A DNA stretch of 64,000 bases from Candidatus Moanabacter tarae (GTDB lineage Bacteria > Verrucomicrobiota > Verrucomicrobiia > Opitutales > UBA2987). The stretch is taken from assembly GCA_003226295.1 (NCBI GenBank), contig CP029803.1, forward strand, positions 62,001-126,000. The letters run 5' to 3'. Positions 467 through 51,744 of this stretch are shown here, in pieces. How positions within the stretch are numbered: position 1 is the stretch's first letter; each line of letters opens with the position of its first letter. A program made the position numbers and the translations under genes. Under the pieces are notes generated by a model. The model had not been told where the DNA came from. It saw nothing but the letters and a program-made list of their open reading frames with translations, and did not search any database.

Positions 467-1069
467 TTATACAAGGAACTTATCGATAAACTCTCTCAGT
501 GCGGTATGATCTTTTGCTACGGGATACTCAGTGTGCTTTTTTATTAAAGAATCAGGAGGGCAAAATAAAATCCCATGATCGGCTGTGTGGAGCATTTGCA
601 CGTCATTGTAGGAGTCGCCCGCGGCGATGACGGTGAAGTTTAGTTTTTTTAGGGCTTCGACTGTTCTTTGCTTGTGGTCATTTTGGCGAAGCTTATAGTC
701 GACGATTTTCCCTTTGCTGTTGATCACCAGGCTATGACAGAAAAGGGTGGGGAATCCGAGCTTCTCCAACAAAGGATCGGCGAATTCGATAAAGGTATCG
801 GAAAGAATAATCAGCCGAGTTTTCGAAACCAGCCACTGCGTGAATTCAACGGCACCTGGAAGAGGATCAAGGGTCTCGATTATTTTTCGAATATCTTCAA
901 TGCCAATATTATTCTTTGAGAGTAGAGCGAGGCGTGAGTGCATGAGTTTCTCGTAGTCTGGTTCATCTCTTGTGGTACACCGCAATTCCCTGATCCCGGT
1001 TGAATCGGAAATCGCAATCCAGATCTCAGGAAGGAGAACGCCTTCCAAGTCGAGGCATACTAAATGCAT
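467..1069 (-). CDS. thrH: ThrH-type HAD phosphatase (phosphoserine phosphatase / homoserine phosphotransferase)
   Basis: A 200-residue cytosolic HAD-superfamily enzyme, the usual ThrH length. The protein opens with CLDLEGVLLPEIW, which is motif I with the nucleophile Asp7 and the LEG variant typical of ThrH. Motif II is LSDTF and motif IV is AAGDSYND. In Pseudomonas, ThrH dephosphorylates phosphoserine and can transfer the phosphate to homoserine, so it may serve serine or threonine synthesis here. It lies about 130 bases after cmk on the same strand and directly before the iron-dependent dehydrogenase. The family call is firm; which activity dominates cannot be told from the sequence. Confidence 0.9.
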   Translation of the reverse strand: MHLVCLDLEGVLLPEIWIAISDSTGIRELRCTTRDEPDYEKLMHSRLALLSKNNIGIEDIRKIIETLDPLPGAVEFTQWLVSKTRLIILSDTFIEFADPLLEKLGFPTLFCHSLVINSKGKIVDYKLRQNDHKQRTVEALKKLNFTVIAAGDSYNDVQMLHTADHGILFCPPDSLIKKHTEYPVAKDHTALREFIDKFLV

Positions 1070-1202
1070 AGGGCTTAGTCGATCTCTGGGAGTTTAGAAA
1101 AGTCAAGTGCTAAGGATTTGGGATCCGCAGTTTAGACCAATAGCGGGAATGGACTATCTGTCCACGTCCAATAAATCGCGAAGATTCTGGATGGCCGAAT
1201 TT

Positions 1203-1853
1203 CTACAATCCGATCTGCTGGCAGATTAGGTTGACGACTTCCTCAAGTGAGATCGTAGTGTTGTTGATGCGGATTGCATCTGGAGGGCATACGAGAGGGG
1301 AGTGTTGCCGTGTTTTGTCTGTATGATCCCGAACTTCAATGGCATCATCAAGCCCCTCTTTTATGCGCCGAAGGGTTCGTGCGTTACTGTTGGCTTCTAG
1401 GAAGAACTTGTAATCGGCTTTTGGGAAAATGACGGAGCCGATATCACGTCCCTCCATAATGATTCCGTTAAATCTGTTTTCTCTGGCAACTTTGGGAAGT
1501 CTGCGTTGATATGATAGAAGTACTTTTCGCAGGCCCGGGAGGGCAGCAAAGCGTGAGACCATACGATTTACTTCAGCACTTTTAAGCTGAGATTGTTCTA
1601 AGACCCCTCGAGGGAGGCTAAGATGGGACTGGTAACCTCTAATTTCGGTTTTTAGTGGAAGGCTGACAAGCTCTGATTCCAATTTCTCCGGCTCCGTTGG
1701 GTTTATCCCAAGATTGAGGCAATGGTGGGTGAGGGCACGATATTGAGAGCCACTGTCGACGTAAAGTAGTTTGCACTCCTCCGCGACCATGCGAGCAGTG
1801 GAGGATTTTCCAGATGCGGCCTCGCCGTCGATTGCGACAATGATAAAATCCAT
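1203..1853 (-). CDS. cmk: Cytidylate kinase
   Basis: A 216-residue (d)CMP kinase that phosphorylates CMP and dCMP with ATP in the cytosol. The P-loop GEAASGKSS lies at residues 10-18, followed by the YVDSGSQYRALT nucleotide-monophosphate-binding segment. The GRDIGSVIFPKADYKFFLEA motif and an Arg-rich lid segment around RTLRRI are also typical. It starts 4 bases after the aroA stop and is evidently the third gene of tyrA-aroA-cmk. The rpsA gene often found after cmk is absent here. Confidence 0.95.
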   Translation of the reverse strand: MDFIIVAIDGEAASGKSSTARMVAEECKLLYVDSGSQYRALTHHCLNLGINPTEPEKLESELVSLPLKTEIRGYQSHLSLPRGVLEQSQLKSAEVNRMVSRFAALPGLRKVLLSYQRRLPKVARENRFNGIIMEGRDIGSVIFPKADYKFFLEANSNARTLRRIKEGLDDAIEVRDHTDKTRQHSPLVCPPDAIRINNTTISLEEVVNLICQQIGL

Positions 1854-1857
1854 AAAA

Positions 1858-3246
1858 TTAGTAAACTTGGTGAATTCCGCTTAAGACTTCGAAGAATTTC
1901 GGAAAAGTTTTCTCAACAGAGTTCGGATTTTTTATGGAGAGCCAGGGCTGCCCATTACCAAGTATGTCATTAGAGCCAAGGATCGAGAAACTCATCGCGA
2001 TGCGATGATCCTGATAGGTTTCGATAGAGATGCCTTCAGTAGCTCTTTCGATTAGCTTGTGGCGGTTGGGCCGGATCGTGATTGCATCTAATTCTTCTTC
2101 GATATTCTGTCCCAGCTTCCTCAATTCCTCTGATACTGCGGCAATCCGGTCTGTTTCCTGGTGCCGGGTATGGCCGATTCCAGTGATACGTGACGGACCT
2201 TCCAGAAGGGGGGCGATTGCGGCCAAGGTGAGAAATGTGTCGGATATCTCACTAAAGTCCAAATTGATTCCTGTAACACCCGGCTTCAAAATTCTACTAC
2301 TGCTGAAGGAAAATGTACGGACCTTTTCCCCAGTAAGTTGATGGAGGTTGGTTAATTGGGCTAGGGTGTCGGCGAATCGAATATCCCCTTGAATCGAATT
2401 GGACGGGAGCGGGATTTTTATTGTGGTTTTCCCCGATGCAAGAGGAAGGACAATGAAATAACTGGCTGCTGTAGCATCTGGTTCGACATTAAATATGCCT
2501 GTCGGGAGGTGATAACCCATACCTTCTTTAATGAAGATGCTCGAATCGGTCTGCTTGATGGACTGTCCGGCACCAAACTTTTCCATCATGCGGAGTGTCA
2601 TGTCGATGAAGGGTTTTGAAACTGTCTTCCCTTTGAGTTCCAGTTCAAGGGAGCTCTTTCCTTTTGGTGCCGCCAAGAGGAATGCGGAGGCGAACTGGCT
2701 GCTTTTTTTGGTATCGATTTGGACACTTCCTCCACTCAGCCCGTTGGTTTGCAAATGAAAGGGAAAGCAGCCAGTTTCTATTTCGTACTCGATTTTGGCT
2801 CCTTGTGAGACAAGAGCTTCAAGTAGTTCCGCCATAGGCCGTGTCCGCATCTCTCGATCACCGTCTAGACGGTAAGAACCTCCTTCTTTTAGGCAGAGAA
2901 AGGCGGTGAGAAAGCGAGCTGCAGTGCCAGCGTTCCCAACATCAAGCTCGGCGGTATTTTTAGGAATATCGCCTCTCTGTCCTATGATCGTAATTCTTGA
3001 GGCCCCTTTCTCTGGTTTCACATCAAAGCCGAGAATGGAGAGAGCTCGAATCATGATATCGGTATCTCGACTAAAGAGGGCATTTCTAATTGTGACCTTT
3101 TGATCCGAGAGAGCAGCTAGTAGGAGAGCCCGATTGGTAATACTCTTAGACCCCGGAAGCTTCACAGAATGACATGAAGGCTGAGTGAATGGAATGATTG
3201 GCAGGATATCTGAAGAGCCGAGACTCATGGTGGATTGGATGGGCAA
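1858..3246 (-). CDS. aroA: 3-phosphoshikimate 1-carboxyvinyltransferase (EPSP synthase)
   Basis: The sixth step of the shikimate pathway, joining phosphoenolpyruvate to shikimate 3-phosphate. At 462 residues it is slightly longer than the 430-440 typical of the family. Hallmarks in order are LPGSKSITNRALLLAAL near the N-terminus, LDVGNAGTAARFLTAFL, GDREMRTRPM, and the C-terminal segment TYQDHRIAMSFSI. The Lys and Arg residues that contact substrate are therefore present. It begins 6 bases after tyrA and ends 4 bases before cmk, so the three genes almost certainly form one transcript. tyrA upstream uses the product of the same pathway. Confidence 0.96.
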   Translation of the reverse strand: MPIQSTMSLGSSDILPIIPFTQPSCHSVKLPGSKSITNRALLLAALSDQKVTIRNALFSRDTDIMIRALSILGFDVKPEKGASRITIIGQRGDIPKNTAELDVGNAGTAARFLTAFLCLKEGGSYRLDGDREMRTRPMAELLEALVSQGAKIEYEIETGCFPFHLQTNGLSGGSVQIDTKKSSQFASAFLLAAPKGKSSLELELKGKTVSKPFIDMTLRMMEKFGAGQSIKQTDSSIFIKEGMGYHLPTGIFNVEPDATAASYFIVLPLASGKTTIKIPLPSNSIQGDIRFADTLAQLTNLHQLTGEKVRTFSFSSSRILKPGVTGINLDFSEISDTFLTLAAIAPLLEGPSRITGIGHTRHQETDRIAAVSEELRKLGQNIEEELDAITIRPNRHKLIERATEGISIETYQDHRIAMSFSILGSNDILGNGQPWLSIKNPNSVEKTFPKFFEVLSGIHQVY

Positions 3247-3252
3247 CGAATT

Positions 3253-4119
3253 CTACGGAATTATATCGTGAGGAGGGAACATACTATCCCGGAAGGTTTT
3301 ACCTTGTTTGAGAGTACTAAGAATTTCTAAACTCTCGTGATTTATGATTGACGATTTGAGAGATCGAAGATCGTCCTCGAAACCGCTGATTGCACGAATG
3401 ATCTCTTCGCGATTCTGCTCGATGATTGCCTTCCACAACTCGGGATTACCCGATGCGATACGGGTGGCATCGCGGAGTCCATTACCTGCGAAGCCCTGCC
3501 AGTTCTGGTTGCGAGTTGAAAGGGAAGAGCACAGGACACTGGCTATTAAATGAGGCAAGTGGCTAATATGAGCGACGATCTCGTCGTGAGTCTCGGGAGA
3601 GACTGTTGCCACATTCATACCGAGTGCTTCCCAGAAGCGAATGATTGATTCCACTGCTTTAGATTTGGAATCCGCCAAAGGCGTTACAAAACAGGTCTTT
3701 CGGGTATAGAGATCAGCTCGAGCATTTGCCATACCGCCCCTTTCCGATCCCGCCATAGGATGAGAACCAATAAATGCGACATTTGCTGGCATGGATGCAT
3801 GACAGTTGTGGGCGATAAAACCTTTGGCGCTTCCAACATCCGTGACCAACCCTCCGGATTTGAAGTTTTTGGCAATACGGCTAACCAAGGGATGAATTGT
3901 CTGTACGGGACAGCAAACAACCGTAAGGTCCGCATTCTCCACTGCTTGTTCCGGTGTTTCTGCTACTTCATCGCACCATGGTTGCATTTTGCACTTTATT
4001 CTTGATTCTGATCTACGTGACCAGACCACGGTTTGCTGAGATAACCCATGGCTCTTGAGTGCAAGAGCGAGGGACGCACCTAAGAGTCCGGGAGCAAGTA
4101 TTGTAATCTGTTCAAACAC
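3253..4119 (-). CDS. tyrA: Prephenate/arogenate dehydrogenase
   Basis: A 288-residue NAD(P)-dependent TyrA, the tyrosine branch of aromatic amino acid synthesis. The N-terminal Rossmann motif reads APGLLGASLALAL. Further TyrA features are VTDVGSAKG and IGSHPMAGSERGG, and the helical dimerisation half contains HISHLPHLIA with the expected substrate-site histidines. There is no chorismate mutase or ACT domain, so it is the short monofunctional form. It is the first gene of the tyrA-aroA-cmk run. Whether prephenate or arogenate is preferred is not decided by the sequence. Confidence 0.93.
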   Translation of the reverse strand: MFEQITILAPGLLGASLALALKSHGLSQQTVVWSRRSESRIKCKMQPWCDEVAETPEQAVENADLTVVCCPVQTIHPLVSRIAKNFKSGGLVTDVGSAKGFIAHNCHASMPANVAFIGSHPMAGSERGGMANARADLYTRKTCFVTPLADSKSKAVESIIRFWEALGMNVATVSPETHDEIVAHISHLPHLIASVLCSSLSTRNQNWQGFAGNGLRDATRIASGNPELWKAIIEQNREEIIRAISGFEDDLRSLKSSIINHESLEILSTLKQGKTFRDSMFPPHDIIP

Positions 4120-7572: not shown

Positions 7573-8607
7573 TTATTTCTCGAATGCGGCATCGAAGACG
7601 ACACCGCTGGGTTTGAAGTCAACCCGCCGGGTAAAAGCTGCGGCTTCAGCTGCCCCGTGGAAACGATCCATCCGCATATCTTCCCACTCGACAGAGAGGG
7701 GACCTTGATAGTTGATATCGTTTAGAGCGACAATGATTTCCTCGAAATTAACATCGCCATGGCCAAGGGAACGAAAATCCCAGTACCGTCGCGGATCACC
7801 GAAATCAGTGTGCCCTCCAAAGATGCCTGAGGTGCCATCCCCGTGACCCCACCAAGCATCTTTCATGTGGAGATGGTAGATGCGATCCGAGAAAATACGT
7901 AAAAACTTAATATAGTCGACTCCCTGATAACCAAGGTGGGAGGGGTCATAGTTAAATCCGAAGCGCTTGTGGTAATTCACCGATCTAAGGGCTCTTTGAG
8001 AGGAAGCGATGTCAAATGCTATCTCGGTGGGATGAACTTCCAGGCCAAAGTTGACATCTACCTTGTCAAATTCATCGAGGATCGGTGTCCAGCGATGGGC
8101 AAAGTCTTGGAAGCCTCTCTCTAGGAATTCTTGGCTAGTAGGAGGAAATGCATAGACGGCGTGCCAGATACTGGAACCGCTGAATCCATTAACTACCAAG
8201 GGGAATTCAGTTTCACCTTTGATCTTAGGCTTCAAGTCGAAGAATTTGCGACTGGCTCTGGCGGTTTTGATCATCTTCTTGGCGGCCCTCCGCTGCACAC
8301 CAGCCGGATCACCTTTTCCCCAAACATCGGGTGGCAGGATAGCTTTATGTCTCTCGTCAATATGATCGCAAACTGCCTGTCCTACAAGGTGATTGGAGAT
8401 AGAGAAGCAAGACAGGCCGTGATCGAAGAGTAACTCCCAATGCTTTTGGCAGTACCGTTTACTTCGGGTGGCTTGATCAACGTCAAAATGGTCTCCCCAA
8501 CAGGCCAACTCGAGGCCATCGTAGCCCATTTCTTTTGCTTTCGGAGCTAACTCCTCAATAGAAAGATCCGCCCACTGGCCGGTAAATAGAGTAACAGGTC
8601 TTGACAT
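7573..8607 (-). CDS. Sugar phosphate isomerase/epimerase family protein (xylose-isomerase-like TIM barrel)
   Basis: A roughly 344-residue TIM-barrel protein of the AP-endonuclease-2/xylose-isomerase-like fold. Probable metal ligands are in [12 protein letters not shown] (Glu), [11 protein letters not shown] (Asp, His), HLHMKDAWW (His) and LSVEWED (Glu). The start at 8607 ([15 protein letters not shown]) fits the first strand better than an in-frame ATG 14 codons upstream. Relatives isomerise or epimerise free sugars or inositols, but the substrate cannot be inferred. It stands alone, convergent with xseA. Confidence 0.85.
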
Positions 8608-8909
8608 TGTTGTAATCGACAAATCTAGCTTGCTGAAGTACTTCTGCAATGTTTATTCGTAGAAACCTAATCTGATTTCACCGTGGTCTCAGAATGTTGA
8701 AGTGAAGTGCAATGGACAGATTGCTATTTTCACAAAATAGAGGCTTCGAATCCTCTTATATTCCATACAAAAGGGATAACCCGAGTGGAGAAACCAAGTT
8801 TATTCGACTGAGATTTATCACAATGAAGCTGAATATCGGAAAGGGCATATGGACATAGAGACCATTACCCTTAATTCTCAATTTCCCGATTCCCCTACTT
8901 AACCCACTT
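8608..8909. other. Divergent gap between isomerase-like gene and Fpg gene: no gene seen
   Basis: About 300 AT-rich bases between two divergent genes. They should contain both promoters, but no clear operator, riboswitch or RNA gene could be made out. Confidence 0.5.
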
Positions 8910-9725
8910 ATGCCCGAACTAGCTGAAGTTGAGTACTATAGGAAGGTGTGGGATCCTGGGCTGGGGCGCCGGGTTAAGGAGGTGATTTTTAGACCGCATG
9001 TCCGGTGTTTCCGGGAGTGCGATGTTAAAAATCTCCGGCGTAGCCTTTTGGGTCGGACTCTAAAGAGTTCGGAGAGCCACGGCAAACGCATGCTCTTTCG
9101 ATTTTCACGTGATATGTGGCTCGGAGTACATCTAGGGATGACGGGTAAACTGCACTTAGAATCCGATAGATATTTGCCGGATAAGCATGCCCACTTCGTC
9201 ATCGTCCAGACGAAACAGAAGCTAGTCTTTTCAGATTTTCGACAATTTGGAAAGATCCTTTTATCGATCGGTAGAAAGGCTCCGGAATGGTGGAGTAATC
9301 TTCCTCCAGCTCTGGTCTCAGACGGGTTCACTCGCGATCTTTTACGGGACTTTCTTAAGCAGCACGGTCGGTCCCCAATTAAATCAGTCCTTCTCCTTCA
9401 AGAGCGCTTTCCAGGAATTGGGAACTGGATGGCAGATGAGATTCTCTGGCGGGCGCGGATTCGTCCTGACTGTATGGCGGCTAGAATTAATGGAGTCAAA
9501 CTCTCGCATCTCCATTCATCTATCGGGCGAGTGTGTCGAGAAGCTCTCGATGTCGTAGCAACCGACTGGAAAGACCCTCCGGATTCGTGGCTTTTTAACC
9601 ATCGATGGAAGGATGGAGGCCGTTGTCCAAAAACTGGGAGACCTTTGCAGCGCCGAAAAATAAGAGGACGTACTACCTGCTGGAGCCCGGCCTGGCAGAG
9701 GTGGCCCATATCCCGGTCAGGTTGA
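8910..9725 (+). CDS. mutM: Formamidopyrimidine-DNA glycosylase family protein (Fpg/Nei) with degenerate zinc finger
   Basis: A 271-residue base-excision repair glycosylase/AP lyase. The mature N-terminus would be Pro-Glu (MPELAEVE), the catalytic pair of the family. Lys59 in SHGKRM and the helix-two-turns-helix segment around PGIGNWMADEILWRARI are also present. The C-terminal zinc-finger region keeps the loop Arg (IRGRTT, about residue 254) but only two of the four zinc cysteines (about 239 and 257). The positions of the second and fourth are Thr and Ala or Trp, so zinc binding is doubtful and a zincless finger is likely. It is most likely active on oxidised purines. Confidence 0.85.
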   Translation: MPELAEVEYYRKVWDPGLGRRVKEVIFRPHVRCFRECDVKNLRRSLLGRTLKSSESHGKRMLFRFSRDMWLGVHLGMTGKLHLESDRYLPDKHAHFVIVQTKQKLVFSDFRQFGKILLSIGRKAPEWWSNLPPALVSDGFTRDLLRDFLKQHGRSPIKSVLLLQERFPGIGNWMADEILWRARIRPDCMAARINGVKLSHLHSSIGRVCREALDVVATDWKDPPDSWLFNHRWKDGGRCPKTGRPLQRRKIRGRTTCWSPAWQRWPISRSG

Positions 9726-28690: not shown

Positions 28691-29257
28691 TCACTTATAG
28701 TACACGGCGACATGGGCGTGATAAAGAGCGATGATGATCGTGAGCGCGGCCAGGGTTACGTGGAGGAGTATCCATACTGTTCTGTAAGAGTAAGACCAAA
28801 CAGGAATTCTCAAGCTGGTTGGATTGGCTAATCCCACAACAATATTGATCAAGAAAACCCAGCTGAGTACAGCAAGGTATCCATATCCGAATTCAGTACT
28901 GTGGAGATAAAAAAGAATCGGAGCAAAGGTCCCTGTTCTTTGATGGAAGGCCAACAGGCGGAGGAGTTTTTTTCTTCGAATGCGTGCTAGGAAAAGGTAC
29001 CACTGGTATCCCACAAACAAGAGCAAGCAGGTGCCGGTTGCGTATTTGTATTCGTCCAATGCCTGTAAGCTATGGAGCCAATCACAGTGAAAACCGGCCA
29101 CATCTTGGACAAAATAAAGTAAAACTAAGGCGATGCCAACCAATCTCCATTTCCATTCGCGCGGCATTCGTTCCGGTGGTCGGCTCGAAAAATTCCCAGA
29201 CGACAAGAGGCGACGCCCCCGCTCAATTAAAAGCTGGGATCTCCTAATCTGATTCAT
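28691..29257 (-). CDS. Four-helix membrane protein with di-haem b histidine pattern
   Basis: A 188-residue inner-membrane protein with four hydrophobic segments (about 38-55, 73-92, 108-142 and 160-186). Histidines 105 and 119 on one segment and 166 and 180 on the last are each 14 residues apart, the spacing used in cytochrome b and ferric-reductase-like proteins to hold two stacked b haems between two helices. It follows a single-haem DUF3365 protein by 31 bases and a pentahaem cytochrome before that. The inferred role is moving electrons across the membrane between quinones and periplasmic cytochromes. I cannot name its family. Confidence 0.75.
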   Translation of the reverse strand: MNQIRRSQLLIERGRRLLSSGNFSSRPPERMPREWKWRLVGIALVLLYFVQDVAGFHCDWLHSLQALDEYKYATGTCLLLFVGYQWYLFLARIRRKKLLRLLAFHQRTGTFAPILFYLHSTEFGYGYLAVLSWVFLINIVVGLANPTSLRIPVWSYSYRTVWILLHVTLAALTIIIALYHAHVAVYYK

Positions 29258-29288
29258 GGACTAGGCTCATGAATTTGCCTTTTCGGAA

Positions 29289-30104
29289 TCATTCCATCCC
29301 CCGTTGAAACTCGATAATAGTTTGCAATGTTATGGGAGAGGCTCGTTCCCCCACCTTGGCTATAAAGACATCTGTGGACGGAAGATAGTAACCATCCGTT
29401 GGCCAATTCTTTCCGACCTTGGGCGGATTGGCAAAGGTGGCTACTTTTTCAATGTATTGATCGTAGCTCTCACGAAATCCTATCCGAAGTGCTTGTACCA
29501 TTGAGATAGCCTCATCGAGGCTAACCGAACTCGCTGGATAAGACCAGGTTGAGGCACCCATGATGTCACCTAGTTTCCAATCGGATTTTGTAGTTTCTGG
29601 TTCTTTGTTGTGGCATCTTACGCAGGTCTCAGCGACGGCAACATCCGGAAACATGGCAATTTGAAAACTCGTGTCATCATCATAAAAAAATTGTGGCTCG
29701 CCAGTTTCTCTAATTTCCGCAAAGCGGGAGTTCTGAAGGCCGGTGAATTGATTGGCATCGTTGATTGGAAAGTCTGAGCCGAGAAATAGATAGAGGCGCA
29801 AGGGACTTCGGCGGAGGCTTTCTGCAGTTTCCCGTAGGAAAAGGGCGGGAAGGGGTCCTGCTTCGAGTTCGGGGTTGCGCCAACTCTTGTTGAATTCCAA
29901 ACCTCTTTTTTGACCAGCGCCCACAATTTCCTCCGTCCAGAGTTTGCGAACTGTGTCATTTTCTGCTTCTAGGACCTCGAAAACTTTAGAGATTGGGATT
30001 GGTCGCGCGGCGTCTAGGGCAGAGTCTTCCGGCGGCGCGTTAACGATTATCAAAACGACGAAACATAGCGTGACTGCAATAGAAATAACGATGGTCTTCC
30101 TCAT
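29289..30104 (-). CDS. DUF3365 (Tll0287-like) single-haem c-type protein
   Basis: A 271-residue exported protein with an N-terminal membrane anchor or signal (IVISIAVTLCFVVLIIV). The middle and end carry the DUF3365/Tll0287-like haem sensor fold: WRNPELEAGPLPA, a ligand region, and CVRCH at 161-165 followed by GDIMGASTWSYP. The domain is known from a cyanobacterial c-haem protein with a PAS-like fold. It overlaps the pentahaem cytochrome gene by 4 bases and precedes the di-haem b-like protein, so the three probably work as one redox unit on the periplasmic face. Confidence 0.85.
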   Translation of the reverse strand: MRKTIVISIAVTLCFVVLIIVNAPPEDSALDAARPIPISKVFEVLEAENDTVRKLWTEEIVGAGQKRGLEFNKSWRNPELEAGPLPALFLRETAESLRRSPLRLYLFLGSDFPINDANQFTGLQNSRFAEIRETGEPQFFYDDDTSFQIAMFPDVAVAETCVRCHNKEPETTKSDWKLGDIMGASTWSYPASSVSLDEAISMVQALRIGFRESYDQYIEKVATFANPPKVGKNWPTDGYYLPSTDVFIAKVGERASPITLQTIIEFQRGME

Positions 30105-30832
30105 TTATGGCTTGATGGATTACTTGAGGATTTAATTTTTGAAGGGAAAGCAAATTTTTCGAGCGAGTAGGGAGATGGGGCTCCGTTGAAATACTCCCAA
30201 ATTCGTTGTTCTGAAACGCCATCCTCGATGCGGTGAGGTGTTGTCATCTTATGATTTCCGTGAAAGTCATGGCACTGAAGACAGGTATTCCACAATTCGT
30301 CACGAACCAAAATGGCATGGGTGGGGGAGATTGGGTCATTTTTGAGGTCGGTGTCTTTATGGCAGTGGGTGCAATATCCAATAGTCGGGAGGGTTACCCG
30401 TTTCCCCCGGTGTTCGGTGTGGCAGGTGATACATTGGTAGACCTTGAACTCTTTCCGAACTGCGGCAAAACGCGGTTCGAGAAAGCGGGAGATTGGGTGT
30501 CGGTCGTCCGGGCGTTCGTGACACTCAAGGCAGGACTCGCTGGATACATCTTCGGACCCGAATCCAATAGCGGATTTGCGTAGGCCGAGCCAGTAATGGA
30601 CGTTGGAACTAAATTCCTGTGCCACTGTACCCTCAATAGGAATATGGCATTCGTGGCAGCTAATTTCTTCATGTCCAGTATTCATAGGACCCTTGGCAAC
30701 CCACTTGTTCTGCTCTGGGAAAGAGAGAAGAGAAGTAAACAGAATACCAAGAGAAATCCCCAGAAACACCCCTAAATAGCGTCGCTTTTTCGTTCCTTTT
30801 AAATAGTCTGAAATGATTGATTTGATTCTCAA
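30101..30832 (-). CDS. Membrane-anchored pentahaem cytochrome c
   Basis: A 243-residue protein with an N-terminal signal anchor (YLGVFLGISLGILFTSLLSF) and five c-haem sites: CHECH at 59, CLECH at 101, CITCH at 134, CTHCH at 154 and CLQCH at 184. Additional histidines near each site could be distal ligands. The last 40 residues are Ser/Pro/Lys-rich and haem-free. It resembles the multihaem cytochromes that act in quinol oxidation or extracellular electron transfer, but no catalytic subunit such as nitrite reductase is adjacent. First gene of the three-gene redox module; the start overlaps nothing upstream. Confidence 0.88.
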   Translation of the reverse strand: MRIKSIISDYLKGTKKRRYLGVFLGISLGILFTSLLSFPEQNKWVAKGPMNTGHEEISCHECHIPIEGTVAQEFSSNVHYWLGLRKSAIGFGSEDVSSESCLECHERPDDRHPISRFLEPRFAAVRKEFKVYQCITCHTEHRGKRVTLPTIGYCTHCHKDTDLKNDPISPTHAILVRDELWNTCLQCHDFHGNHKMTTPHRIEDGVSEQRIWEYFNGAPSPYSLEKFAFPSKIKSSSNPSSHK

Positions 30833-31029
30833 AATTTAGTTCGAAACATTAAATTTCGAGACCTCCTTAATTATTACTCGCGGTCATAAAATCGGAAATA
30901 TTAATGGGATTTCTGTACAACAAGGAAGCAGCTTTCGAGTTTGGTATCGTTCAAATGGTCTTCCCAAGGTTGCAAATTTGGTTTTGCGCACAACATGGCG
31001 TCCATCATACCATAACGGTGCTTCCCAAA

Positions 31030-35793: not shown

Positions 35794-36627
35794 CTAAATA
35801 GCTAGCGCAACTCCCGTTCCCCCTTCATCAGGTGGAAGGTATTCAATTCGCCGTAGAAAGCGTTCTCCAAAATCATAATTCGGCTGACCAGAAACGAAAC
35901 GCCAGAGGCGGACACGACGCATCATTTCGTAGCGGTGTTCATTGCCTTCCCAGCCGTGGTTAGTCGATAGAATTTCTGCGATTTTCGGATCATCCAGATC
36001 GGAGGTGTCGAAATTGCGAATCTGAGGTCGCGTTGGGTTGAGTCGCAACTTGTACATGAAACGGTCTCGACGCGTGTGATTGCTACGGGCCCCGTGCCAA
36101 ACGCGAGTGTTCCAAACATACATGGAGCCGGCATTGCATGATGCCCAGACCTTGCCCCGCATATGCTGGTAGAAAGTGATTTCACTGGTACGCACATTGC
36201 GAAACTGTGTGCCTGGTATCAGAAATGTGCCCCCCATCTCGTCCGGTGTATCAGCAGGAAAAAAGGAGAGCTGGATATCGAAGTAATTTTCGCGAAAATC
36301 AATCACCGAGTCCTGATGAGTATTGGGGCCATACATCTTTTTCGCTCCCACGAAATGAGCAGCGTGGTGATCATAAAGGGGACGTGGCCCAACTAGGGAA
36401 TCGATCAGACCTTTAACCTTCGGTAGCCGGAAGGCGTCGCCCAGAGCTGTACCTTTTGGCCAAGTTTCTTCAAAGGGTGTGCCAACGGTGTAGTACCCGC
36501 GCTTCTTTTTTGCCATTTCGACCAAACAGGCTTTGCACAGCTTTTTCGGTATCATGCTATCAAATTTAAGATAGCCAGATGCCACGAATTGAGCCATCTG
36601 TTTCGAATTTATTAAATACTTGTTCAC
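35794..36627 (-). CDS. Phytanoyl-CoA dioxygenase family protein (1)
   Basis: A 277-residue Fe(II)/2-oxoglutarate oxygenase of the PhyH type. The facial triad is complete: His104 and Asp106 in NTHQDSV and His178 in VWHGARSNHT, with Arg residues near 186-189 for 2-oxoglutarate. GGTFLIPGTQFRNV is the usual PGSH-like strand. It hydroxylates an unknown small molecule. Its ATG overlaps the stop of an upstream 100-residue gene by 4 bases (ATGA), indicating coupled translation. One of five PhyH-like genes in the window. Confidence 0.88.
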   Translation of the reverse strand: MNKYLINSKQMAQFVASGYLKFDSMIPKKLCKACLVEMAKKKRGYYTVGTPFEETWPKGTALGDAFRLPKVKGLIDSLVGPRPLYDHHAAHFVGAKKMYGPNTHQDSVIDFRENYFDIQLSFFPADTPDEMGGTFLIPGTQFRNVRTSEITFYQHMRGKVWASCNAGSMYVWNTRVWHGARSNHTRRDRFMYKLRLNPTRPQIRNFDTSDLDDPKIAEILSTNHGWEGNEHRYEMMRRVRLWRFVSGQPNYDFGERFLRRIEYLPPDEGGTGVALAI

Positions 36628-37429: not shown

Positions 37430-38233
37430 CTAATCGTAGTTACTGCTGATATGGTTACCCATCAGGCGTAGTTGGCGAGGCGAGGATTGCTCTAGGATTT
37501 GTTTGTCGAATTGGAACTTATTAAGATAGGGTGGATATTTCTGAGTGATCATACGTTGGGCGTAATGGACCTGAAGGAGGTATCGAGTACGTCCGCTTGT
37601 ATTAGGAGTACCTCGGTGCCACACTTCACAGCGAAAGACGATGCAGTCACCAGCATTGCAGAGAATGCTCTGTTCACCAGTTCCATTGAATTTTGTTTCT
37701 CCTTCTCTGGGCTGACGTCCGGATCGATGGCTGCCGGGCACGAAATTTGTTGGCCCCAATTCCTCGGTCAGGTCGTCGAGATAATAATGTGCGGTGGTAA
37801 TATAGATTGGGATCTTGATCTCCGGCATTTTCATCACGGATTCTGGCAAAGTCAGTGGTTGCCAGTCGGTATGGAGTTTTTGCGGTGGTCGGCCTGTTCC
37901 TGTCATCCAGGCTGTCATCCCGATGCAGTGGCAATCATCTCCATGCACCATCTCGATAAGGTCGATGATCTCGGGTCGGTCTAGGTAAGAAAGGAAGATT
38001 GGGTCTCGGTTAAAGACATTGTTGATACTCTTGTTGAGAAAGGGTTGTTCAGGAGGTTCGGTATGCCTGTCGAAACTTTCCTCTATCGCGGTCAACCGAT
38101 CCATTGCCGCACGCAAATCTGAGATTTCTGAATTTCTAAGAACTTTGGGGAAGTAGGCGAAACCTTCCTCCTCCATCGCCTGAACATAATCCGCTAGATT
38201 TTCTCTTGGGGACAGGGGTAACGACGTTTCCAT
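37430..38233 (-). CDS. Phytanoyl-CoA dioxygenase family protein (2)
   Basis: A 267-residue PhyH-type 2-oxoglutarate oxygenase. His121 and Asp123 (KLHTDWQ) and His206 (EVWHRGTP) form the iron site, and Arg215 or 217 (SGRTRY) would bind 2-oxoglutarate. NFVPGSHRSGRQP is the conserved PGSH segment. It has lower similarity to the 35794 protein than expected for a recent duplicate, so it probably has its own substrate. It is divergent from the next PhyH gene. Confidence 0.88.
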   Translation of the reverse strand: METSLPLSPRENLADYVQAMEEEGFAYFPKVLRNSEISDLRAAMDRLTAIEESFDRHTEPPEQPFLNKSINNVFNRDPIFLSYLDRPEIIDLIEMVHGDDCHCIGMTAWMTGTGRPPQKLHTDWQPLTLPESVMKMPEIKIPIYITTAHYYLDDLTEELGPTNFVPGSHRSGRQPREGETKFNGTGEQSILCNAGDCIVFRCEVWHRGTPNTSGRTRYLLQVHYAQRMITQKYPPYLNKFQFDKQILEQSSPRQLRLMGNHISSNYD

Positions 38234-38379: not shown

Positions 38380-39240
38380 ATGAGTGTATCACTGGGTACA
38401 GAGCAGCCCCTTTATAAATATCACTTTCAGCCTGAAGACCACTCCGAGGCTATCAGTTGTCTTTTAGAGAATGGGTTCTGCGTTATTCGCTGTTTGATTG
38501 GGGAAGGGGTGATCCAGGCCCTTAAAGACTCCATTGACGAGCACCTGGATCAAGATCGGACACTTCCTTTGGCCTCTAATCGGTATCACGTTGCTTTTGT
38601 AGAGGTTTGTGAAACTCTCTGGAACTTAGTCGACAATGGTCCTTATTGGGATTTTATCTGCGCAGTTCACGGTACGTCCAATCTGTGCCTCCATCGTTCG
38701 GCAGCGATTCTCCGGACGGCTGGAGAATCAATGGGTAAGTGGCACAGCGATTTTCGTGGAGACATTAAAAATCCAAGAAATGTTAACGAGGTGCTAAATC
38801 GATTTCCTATACCCAGTGGGCTCTGGTTTTACCTGAATGGCAGCCACCCAGATCGGGGTGGCATTGCAGTGATCGAGAAGTCCCATTTACCTGGTTGGAA
38901 ACCGCTTGGCTATGAGTTCTCCCCAGAGGGGGGCATTTACCGAATTGGGGAAGATGAAAACAAAGTTTGTAGTGACATGGATGTGCCAGGGTGCGTAGCG
39001 ATTAGGGCGGAGCCAGGAGATTTAATCTGCTTTGCGGATCGGACCTATCATGCAAATATGACAACGAATGAACGTCGCTATTCCTGTGGGATCGGCTGGC
39101 GCCCTAAGAGTTATCGGGTCATAGCTCCGTGGCCTTTAACGAAGTCCGCAATCACAATGATTGATCGACTTCCCGAGCGTCTGAAGACCTACACCGAGGG
39201 TTACACGGGACTGGATACGAATTGGAAGGGAAGTGGGTGA
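38380..39240 (+). CDS. Phytanoyl-CoA dioxygenase family protein (3)
   Basis: A 286-residue PhyH-like oxygenase. His122 and Asp124 lie in GKWHSDFRGD, His224 in RTYHANMTTN, with Arg232-233 nearby, so the iron and 2-oxoglutarate sites are intact. The segment SGLWFYLNGSHPDRGGIAVIEKSHLPGW replaces the standard PGSH strand (here EKSH). Divergent from the previous PhyH gene by about 145 bases. No substrate is known. Confidence 0.85.
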   Translation: MSVSLGTEQPLYKYHFQPEDHSEAISCLLENGFCVIRCLIGEGVIQALKDSIDEHLDQDRTLPLASNRYHVAFVEVCETLWNLVDNGPYWDFICAVHGTSNLCLHRSAAILRTAGESMGKWHSDFRGDIKNPRNVNEVLNRFPIPSGLWFYLNGSHPDRGGIAVIEKSHLPGWKPLGYEFSPEGGIYRIGEDENKVCSDMDVPGCVAIRAEPGDLICFADRTYHANMTTNERRYSCGIGWRPKSYRVIAPWPLTKSAITMIDRLPERLKTYTEGYTGLDTNWKGSG

Positions 39241-45157: not shown

Positions 45158-46363
45158 TTAACTCAGAGTCTGAAAAGGTTCCCACTTTTCTCCTGCCTCT
45201 ACTGCTTGCCGTTCCAGCTCTCCTCGCCATCCCACTAGCTCACCACCCTTAATACGTTCGATGTCGAACTCCGTGTACCGATCTTCAAGTGTTTCACCTA
45301 GCTTCTGTTTTTCTGCCCAGCGATCCCAGGCAATTTTCATCCATTTGTGAGGTAAGGCTTCTCGAACCGCCGGGTCGAGTTGCCAGGCGTATCGTGCATC
45401 TGCTACCATGGGTTCTTTGGTGTTGGGATCCTCCCATTTAGACCAACCAATAGATAAAGTGTTCCGCTCCTGTTCGGGAACCGTGTGTCCTGTATGAATG
45501 TTAGAGCCGATACGAATTAGTGCTTCACCTGCTTTTAGGCGGATCGCCACTTGATCCGGGAGAGGATCTATTCCGTTCCAACTAGGTGTGTATGGCACCC
45601 CCATATCCTTCATCTTTTTGGGAAGGAGAACGTCATGTTCGAAGGGTGTTCGCCATCTTTTATGGCTGCCTGGAACTAGCTCGTGACACTCTTCGTCAAC
45701 CAAAGCCAAAAAAAGGCTCACTCCATTCCGTTCCTGTAGAGACTTTGCATTCTTTTCCTGAATTTCTTTCCAACGGATTTTTTCTACTTCTTCCGAATAG
45801 TCGTCGAGCGTTGATCCTCGGTCAACTCGTTGTGCTCTATGAGGCTCGCCAGTACCCCACCAGGTTGCATCACGGTGCCAGCCTAGTTTGTGCTCATTTT
45901 TGCGCGGATTACACCATAAAAGCATAGCAGTCATCTCCAATTCATGGGGCTTAAGGTCGCACCAGGAATCGACAAAATTCAAAAAATCTGGCGATCCAAG
46001 GAACTGTGCGAAGCACGGTTCCCCAAAGGCTGGGTGGATGAGTCCCCGGATAGCCCAAGCTTCGTCCGCTTTCGCTCGATGGACATAGCCTTTTGAACAA
46101 TCGAGTTTACTGTAACCGTATTCTGGAGCACATGCCTCAGTGATCCGACGACCAGCTTCGCGGAGGACGGGAATCCATGGATTCCCGACAAAATCTGTGA
46201 TTATTACAAACCCATGCTCCTCTAAATGAGCTAGTCGCTGTGAAGTTGCCCCAGGCGCAGCAAGTCCGGGCATAGAATCGGCGAAAGCAGTGGAGTGGTA
46301 ATTGATACGAGAGGTAACAGAGGAGGAATCTTGAAACACACCTGATTTCTGCCTCGAGCTCAT
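45158..46363 (-). CDS. Phytanoyl-CoA dioxygenase family protein (4), long form
   Basis: A 401-residue PhyH-like oxygenase, much longer than the others. His163 and Asp165 lie in LGWHRDATWWG; His290 or 293 lies in NIHTGHTVPEQER with Arg300 for 2-oxoglutarate. LVPGSHKRWRTP at about 229-240 is the PGSH segment. A loop between the two parts (about 175-215) and the C-terminal 60 residues are additions. It stands alone. Confidence 0.87.
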   Translation of the reverse strand: MSSRQKSGVFQDSSSVTSRINYHSTAFADSMPGLAAPGATSQRLAHLEEHGFVIITDFVGNPWIPVLREAGRRITEACAPEYGYSKLDCSKGYVHRAKADEAWAIRGLIHPAFGEPCFAQFLGSPDFLNFVDSWCDLKPHELEMTAMLLWCNPRKNEHKLGWHRDATWWGTGEPHRAQRVDRGSTLDDYSEEVEKIRWKEIQEKNAKSLQERNGVSLFLALVDEECHELVPGSHKRWRTPFEHDVLLPKKMKDMGVPYTPSWNGIDPLPDQVAIRLKAGEALIRIGSNIHTGHTVPEQERNTLSIGWSKWEDPNTKEPMVADARYAWQLDPAVREALPHKWMKIAWDRWAEKQKLGETLEDRYTEFDIERIKGGELVGWRGELERQAVEAGEKWEPFQTLS

Positions 46364-50817: not shown

Positions 50818-51744
50818 TTGAGGGTAGGGAAAAAACAGATGGGAAAGGATGCATCCGACGAGTCCAGCTCCCAATCCATTCCAGGCTTTAAATTGAGCCC
50901 TGAACAGAAATATGAATTCGATATTCATGGCTACATTGTACTACGAAGACATTATGATGGGAAGGCCCTTGAGGATTTCCATGCTGGTATTGACGAACTG
51001 CAGGCTATCCCCATCGACTACGAGACCTACAAGCGCATCGGCATAGCTAGCTACTCCCTGGCGTCAGCTATGGAGGATCCAGACCATCCTTTTTGGCACG
51101 GGAAACACCGCATAGATCGGCAACCAAATCCCGAAACCGGAGGGATAGGCCGAGTGGATCACGCTTTATGTGGCACTGAAAAGTTCGATCGTATAGCGCG
51201 TGATCCAATCCTGAGGGCCGTCCATACCGAGCTAGCGGGTGGCCCAATTATGCTTTCGGCAACCTATTACATTGAAAAGGTGGGCCCTTGCTGCGGAGGC
51301 GGGCTTCACAGCGCTGGCTATCCGGTGAATCGGGACGCCCGCTACGACTTTGATCATACTAACCAGCGCTTTCTGTGCGCGAGTACAAAGAGCGTAGTGA
51401 TCCTCTCAGACATGAGCAGAATCGAAGATGGCCCCTTCGCGGCTATCCCTGGGAGTCACAAGGCTAATCTTACGTGTCCCTTTGAGTTGAGTGATGCTAC
51501 CAAGAACCCTTTAGCCGTCCCTGTTTTCACAGAACCAGGGGATGTCATAATTTTTTCAGAAGGGATGACGCATAACGCCTATCCAGTTACAAATAGGTCT
51601 GTCCGCCGGTCTGTGTTTTTCAACTATATACCAGCGATTAGACCCGATAACCTTCCGCAACAGCGTATGTCAATCTATCCCGATCACGTGCTCCATCGCT
51701 TGGGTGACCTTCGTGATATACTGACAACGCCTGGATACATATAA
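50818..51744 (+). CDS. Phytanoyl-CoA dioxygenase family protein (5) with HxA instead of HxD
   Basis: A 308-residue PhyH-superfamily protein. The PGSHKANLTCP segment and distal His252 (GMTHNAYP) with Arg residues near 260-264 are intact, but the proximal motif reads GGLHSAGYP: His164, Ser165, Ala166. The Asp that normally completes the iron triad is missing. Small residues at this position are the hallmark of Fe/2-oxoglutarate halogenases such as SyrB2, where halide takes the vacant site. A related subfamily with HxG is common in Planctomycetota, function unknown. The start is TTG at 50818, chosen because GAGGAG lies 6 bases before it. Confidence 0.85.
   Translation: MRVGKKQMGKDASDESSSQSIPGFKLSPEQKYEFDIHGYIVLRRHYDGKALEDFHAGIDELQAIPIDYETYKRIGIASYSLASAMEDPDHPFWHGKHRIDRQPNPETGGIGRVDHALCGTEKFDRIARDPILRAVHTELAGGPIMLSATYYIEKVGPCCGGGLHSAGYPVNRDARYDFDHTNQRFLCASTKSVVILSDMSRIEDGPFAAIPGSHKANLTCPFELSDATKNPLAVPVFTEPGDVIIFSEGMTHNAYPVTNRSVRRSVFFNYIPAIRPDNLPQQRMSIYPDHVLHRLGDLRDILTTPGYI

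Follow-up and report, generated by a model that had tools for sequence, protein, structure and literature searches.

Three adjacent genes on the reverse strand of the window, the 64,000-nucleotide stretch of DNA analysed in this study, probably constitute a horizontally mobile electron relay that crosses the membrane from the cytosolic side to the periplasm. The genes encode a membrane-anchored pentahaem cytochrome c (30101..30832; 243 aa beginning at TTG, with a single N-terminal TM helix and five CxxCH motifs), a Tll0287-like/sCache_haem (DUF3365) mono-haem c protein, termed here the haem-Cache protein (29289..30104; 271 aa, CxxCH at residues 161-165), and a small, hydrophobic b-type membrane protein (28691..29257; 188 aa, with H105, H119, H166, and H180). 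The pentahaem and haem-Cache genes overlap by 4 bases, the b gene follows after a 31-base gap, and the three genes are one operon-like unit. An earlier note on this DNA had given the same spacing, which matches the coordinates, and had reported the five CxxCH sites, the DUF3365 protein with one CxxCH, and the His pairs 14 residues apart, all of which were found as stated. It had also noticed no known terminal enzyme in the unit, and we found none either. The parts are of known kinds, and the sequences directly show that the gene set is conserved, that the histidines are invariant, and that relatives carry fusions; a description of the three-gene assembly, its spread, or its architectures was not found in the limited literature searched.

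When GTDB genomes were searched with a profile of the pentahaem/decahaem alignment, 80 loci emerged, 50 of which carried the wider gene set. The loci L076-L105 (mostly Sphingomonadaceae) were set aside because their match to the pentahaem protein is partial and they contain neither haem-Cache nor b. The bare unit, in the order pentahaem, haem-Cache, and b, was identified in the window, in loci from Dehalococcoidia and class-mates (L026 and L152), and in loci from Gammaproteobacteria and class-mates (L027, L155, and L157); two further bare-type loci (L153 and L154) are interrupted by contig ends. The window proteins were 67-69% (pentahaem), 62-64% (haem-Cache), and 49-53% (b) identical to those of L026, L027, and L152. 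Separate trees of the pentahaem, haem-Cache, and b proteins, in which some other rows stand on long branches, each grouped the window with these three loci (support 96/98, 97/94, and 93/93). The grouping spans Verrucomicrobiota-like, Chloroflexota, and Gammaproteobacteria records, as if the three-gene unit moves together and is horizontally mobile; the phylum of the window was judged from its gene content and the class-mates detected. The trees imply an older transfer, and the GC content of the unit (0.477) equals that of the window (0.471), so that any transfer was not recent by the GC measure. The earlier note had staked its reading on the three genes being kept together in relatives, and the gene-neighbourhood analysis revealed that they stay together. 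This recurrence, along with the four histidines conserved in 49 of 49 homologues, exceeds what chance would give.

Additional genes accompany the set in other lineages. All 12 Flavobacteriaceae loci have the order Crp/Fnr, globin, haem-Cache, b, FAD/NAD/2Fe-2S reductase (FNR), and pentahaem, a separate FAD/NAD/Fer2 reductase gene thus sitting between b and the pentahaem gene. The 36 wider loci, which come from Proteobacteria, Acidobacteriota, Verrucomicrobiota, Binatia, and others, all have a NirB-like/b fusion directly upstream of a decahaem c gene; the haem-Cache gene comes next in 34 of them, the other 2 lying at contig ends, and a globin gene is also found in 19. These NirB-type fusions are mostly 640-710 residues long and join the NADH/FAD/BFD half of NirB to a C-terminal membrane b domain. 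Their N-terminal part scored 390-436 bits against TIGR02374 (NirB) over approximately 465 residues, and the stand-alone b protein is homologous to their C-terminal TM domain (hhalign E 3e-7, probability 93). In L156, a single protein (7800-9194) combines BFD, FAD_binding_6, NAD_binding_1, and b, and the pentahaem and haem-Cache genes then follow; a winged-helix-like regulator was also observed at this locus. Side observations on the decahaem loci were a small mono-haem c gene after haem-Cache, sometimes before the globin gene, in L043, L045, L052, and L057 (about 8000-8480), which is possibly a further carrier, and response-regulator-like genes (possibly of the NasT/ANTAR type) near loci among L045, L063, L064, and L068.

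We modelled the b protein with AlphaFold2 by using a 49-sequence alignment (pLDDT 89.4). The earlier note had described a four-helix protein; the model instead predicts five membrane helices (32-54, 68-94, 98-119, 127-143, and 156-186) plus an N-terminal helix. All 49 homologues share H105, H119, H166, H180, G75, G124, L131, and G142, and the b proteins of L152, L155, L156, and L157, added after this set, also keep the invariant residues. The pair H105/H119 lies on TM3 and the pair H166/H180 on TM5, the members of each pair being 14 residues apart. In the predicted model, TM3 and TM5 run in the same direction, so that H105 and H166 share one side of the membrane and H119 and H180 the opposite one. 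With 4.7 K+R per sequence and hardly any acidic residues, the TM2-TM3 loop is strongly positive, which indicates that the loop and the N-terminus are inside and that H119 and H180 are on the outer side. An N-terminus inside is in line with the cytosolic reductase fused N-terminally in relatives. H119 and H180 are accordingly predicted to face the periplasm, where the pentahaem protein resides.

The conserved histidines suggest that the b protein binds haem. Topology and spacing fit His105/His166 and His119/His180 as the presumed haem partners: the codons of His105 (28943..28945) and His119 (28901..28903), both on TM3, would serve the predicted cytosolic-side and periplasmic-side b haems, respectively, and those of their presumed partners on TM5, His166 and His180, lie at 28760..28762 and 28718..28720 (all four on the reverse strand). 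No Pfam or NCBIfam family matched the b protein at threshold; its Ferric_reduct (PF01794) score was 12.8 bits against a cut-off of 28 (E 0.12). The Foldseek comparison of the model with the PDB gave no significant match (best E 0.6), STEAP2 appearing at rank 41 (E 5.2, TM 0.27). The b protein is too divergent for a single-sequence search, which returned no relatives from 52 related genomes and none from the wider genome-contig set.

Two His pairs 14 residues apart on two parallel helices, together with a cytosolic flavin reductase that is either fused or separate, characterise the ferric reductase/NOX/MsrQ kind. The b protein resembles such two-haem transmembrane reductases (Ferric_reduct, DUF4405, and cytochrome b561) in its His pairs and helices and in the flavin reductase of its relatives, and some members of the b family give weak Pfam matches to Ferric_reduct and DUF4405. 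However, the window b protein falls below every Pfam cut-off and has five helices, and its gene partner is a pentahaem c rather than a direct metal or O2 acceptor. The likeness to the cytochrome b of bc1/b6f complexes is limited to the His spacing, the b protein having 188 aa and five helices; no cytochrome b Pfam match was obtained for it, and no Rieske gene was found in the unit. The fused relatives share with NirB (TIGR02374) the N-terminal NADH/FAD/BFD part, but they carry the b membrane domain in place of the sirohaem nitrite-reducing half, and the window contains no such protein.

We then considered which donor might serve the window copy. Neither a globin nor a Fer2_BFD protein was found in the window genome, and its only PF00175 protein is NqrF-like and sits in an Nqr gene run; the donor of the relatives is therefore missing or unlinked in this genome. 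A Pyr_redox_2 donor search of the genome returned 15 matches and was not discriminating. This absence of BFD and globin proteins, together with the bare three-gene form without a linked reductase in six genomes, would suit a quinol:cytochrome c oxidoreductase in which b takes (mena)quinol electrons and feeds the pentahaem protein without any cytosolic donor, and the residues W60, L61, Q65, Q85, and W86, conserved in 15 stand-alone b proteins but variable in at least some fusions, might be the trace of an altered site. We nevertheless regard such an enzyme as unlikely, since flavobacterial b proteins with the same W/L/Q residues adjoin the FNR reductase and each additional cytosolic partner found is a flavoprotein. 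The earlier note had proposed a compact unit, including a membrane protein with two b haems, that moves electrons between quinones and periplasmic or extracellular acceptors. The invariant His pairs, the conserved gene set, and the reductase fusions strongly support such a unit. The relatives do not support the quinone partner, since any cytosolic partner of b in them is a flavoprotein reductase; in the window genome, which lacks a linked reductase, quinones may still be the partner.

The pentahaem protein scored above the Pfam cut-offs of Cytochrom_CIII and Cytochrom_c3_2, which places it in the class III/c3 multihaem group. All its CxxCH motifs and His 54, 112, 141, 172, 191, and 194 are invariant among 15 homologues, and these histidines are likely the distal haem ligands. 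The N-terminal half of the decahaem c can be aligned with the pentahaem protein so that all five haems correspond. No NapC/NirT Pfam match was obtained, the NrfH model gave 11 bits vs 134 (E 0.28), PDB sequence searches with the three proteins and two profiles provided nothing useful, and no outer-membrane porin-cytochrome gene, as the idea of extracellular electron transfer would suggest, was found in the unit. The window genome contains cytochrome c assembly genes.

The probable translation-start region of the pentahaem gene (30829..30868, reverse strand) was read directly from the sequence. An AAGGAGG (30868-30862) lies upstream of a 6-codon leader ORF, ATG TTT CGA ACT AAA TTT TGA (30849-30829), the stop of which overlaps the TTG start (30832-30830). 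This TTG is possibly a coupled start, or the run of T may differ by one base; the flavobacterial homologues begin MFKVSPLRKRQ. A promoter and terminator scan revealed nothing exceeding shuffles. Elsewhere in the window, visual inspection suggested five phytanoyl-CoA dioxygenase-type genes (35794-36627, 37430-38233, 38380-39240, 45158-46363, and 50818-51744), unusually densely packed into 16 kb.

The haem-Cache protein reached 30.7 bits for Pfam PF11845 (Tll0287-like), above the cut-off of 24.1. Its AlphaFold model (pLDDT 88.9) had as its top Foldseek match 5b82 (Tll0287; prob 1.00, TM 0.60 on target). In an alignment of 30 module proteins, C161, C164, and H165 are invariant and no distal Cys was found, the conserved Cys being confined to the CxxCH and the N-terminal signal/lipobox. 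Tll0287 and a P. putida protein have a distal Cys ligand (C59 in the latter) and behave as redox proteins, whereas a PF11845 member without the distal Cys binds NO (PMC12889525). The absence of a distal Cys in the module proteins suggests that their haem site may be open; the split between redox and NO-binding members in that preprint alone assigns no role to them. The second gene of the unit is hence a member of the Tll0287-like/sCache_haem family by Pfam score, CxxCH, and fold, but it differs in lacking the distal Cys, in its fixed redox gene partners, and in a C-terminal extension of approximately 80 aa, which is common only to penta-type modules.

When joined to signalling modules, PF11845 domains bind NO (PMC12889525), and the module protein lacks the distal Cys as the NO-binding member does; on these grounds the haem-Cache protein could be a sensor of NO or of the redox state, the two cytochromes only setting its oxidation state. 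We give this reading hardly any credence. No signalling domain was found in the protein or adjoining it, six c haems and a membrane conduit exceed the needs of a sensor, and stand-alone members show redox properties (PMC12889525). The signalling branch of the family was observed in two genomes of the same class, L012 and L008, in which haem-Cache forms part of a PAS/histidine-kinase-like protein and of a chemoreceptor-like protein. Inspection by eye also revealed a second recurrent company of the domain: in the same-class genomes L005, L007, L009, and L013 (with L018, L020, and L021), a stand-alone haem-Cache gene lies directly after, overlapping, or near an FG-GAP/ASPIC-UnbV-like repeat gene, which replaces the multihaem c.

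Genes of nitrogen metabolism recur near the set in relatives. Searches with haem-Cache and pentahaem identified four same-class genomes with a decahaem c before the haem-Cache gene, and in L014, L015, and L017 the decahaem and haem-Cache pair lies, as judged by eye, within a nitrate-assimilation-like cluster. Nitrate transporter genes were present in the fetched flank of 9 of the 12 Flavobacteriaceae loci and of several fusion loci, and a NasA-like molybdoenzyme (810-3476) precedes the fusion of L063. These transporters, this NasA-like protein, and the resemblance of the NirB-like half of the fusions to assimilatory flavoproteins might suggest an inward flow, in which periplasmic cytochromes feed, via b, cytosolic nitrate/nitrite assimilation enzymes or globin. 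Inward electron movement opposes the membrane potential, however, and no nitrate gene set was found in the places examined in the window genome, whose NIR_SIR protein, a sulfite/nitrite-type reductase, is located near sirohaem/cysteine-type genes, away from the unit; we consider the inward route highly improbable. A PF00384 protein of the window genome resembles, by eye, a subunit of formate dehydrogenase or of a related enzyme. Since no linked genes were found, we abandoned the idea that the window copy serves nitrate assimilation.

In Bradyrhizobium, the nitrate-assimilation operon of the Bjgb-Flp-NasC system encodes a single-domain globin and, next to it, an FAD/NAD(P)H reductase, and Flp and the globin protect against NO (PMC4724949, PMC6965051). 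The relatives of the module combine the same kinds of genes, with a globin and an NAD(P)H flavoprotein in Flavobacteriaceae; by contrast, Flp is described as cytoplasmic, its operon as described has neither a b membrane domain nor a multihaem c, and the window genome has no globin and only the NqrF-like PF00175 protein. Globin and nitrate genes keep recurring beside the set, a pattern that points, as in Bjgb-Flp, to nitrogen oxides or NO, which are the best lead for the final acceptor of the relatives and a weaker lead for that of the window.

In the outward relay favoured here, the small b protein would take up electrons at its cytosolic face and lead them across the inner membrane through two b haems, held by His105/His166 and then by His119/His180. 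The b protein would pass them to the membrane-anchored periplasmic pentahaem c, which would hand them to the haem-Cache protein; the latter, without a distal Cys, may bind a small ligand or pass the electrons on. In most relatives an NAD(P)H flavoprotein that contains a 2Fe-2S centre, and that is either part of a fusion with b or the product of a neighbouring gene, would be the donor, and gene fusion and gene order suggest both the donor chemistry and the carriers there. In the bare three-gene genomes, including that of the window, the donor would be encoded by an unlinked gene. We infer the haem loading, the order of the carriers, the final acceptor, and the outward direction, the last from the membrane potential and the reductase half.

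Only tentatively, as a possibility and not as the expected outcome, do we suggest that b, a multihaem c, and haem-Cache together define a widespread and hitherto undescribed NAD(P)H-to-periplasm reductase class with four or more architectures (bare, separate FNR, BFD-FNR-b, and NirB-type-b). In such a class an open-sited haem-Cache protein would be the terminal site, at which NO or another nitrogen oxide is reduced or scavenged, and the window would hold a minimal form running on another donor.

The proposed three-gene relay occurs as a unit in Verrucomicrobiota, Chloroflexota, and Gammaproteobacteria, and with added genes in Bacteroidota. In the fusions, the flavoprotein half of NirB would be reused to drive a membrane b cytochrome. 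Stand-alone haem-Cache members show redox properties, and the role of such proteins was left open beyond 'redox-related roles' in the preprint (PMC12889525). The relay would link haem-Cache proteins to constant partners in electron transfer and, through these, to cytosolic NAD(P)H, which would turn their role into a question that may be addressed at the bench.
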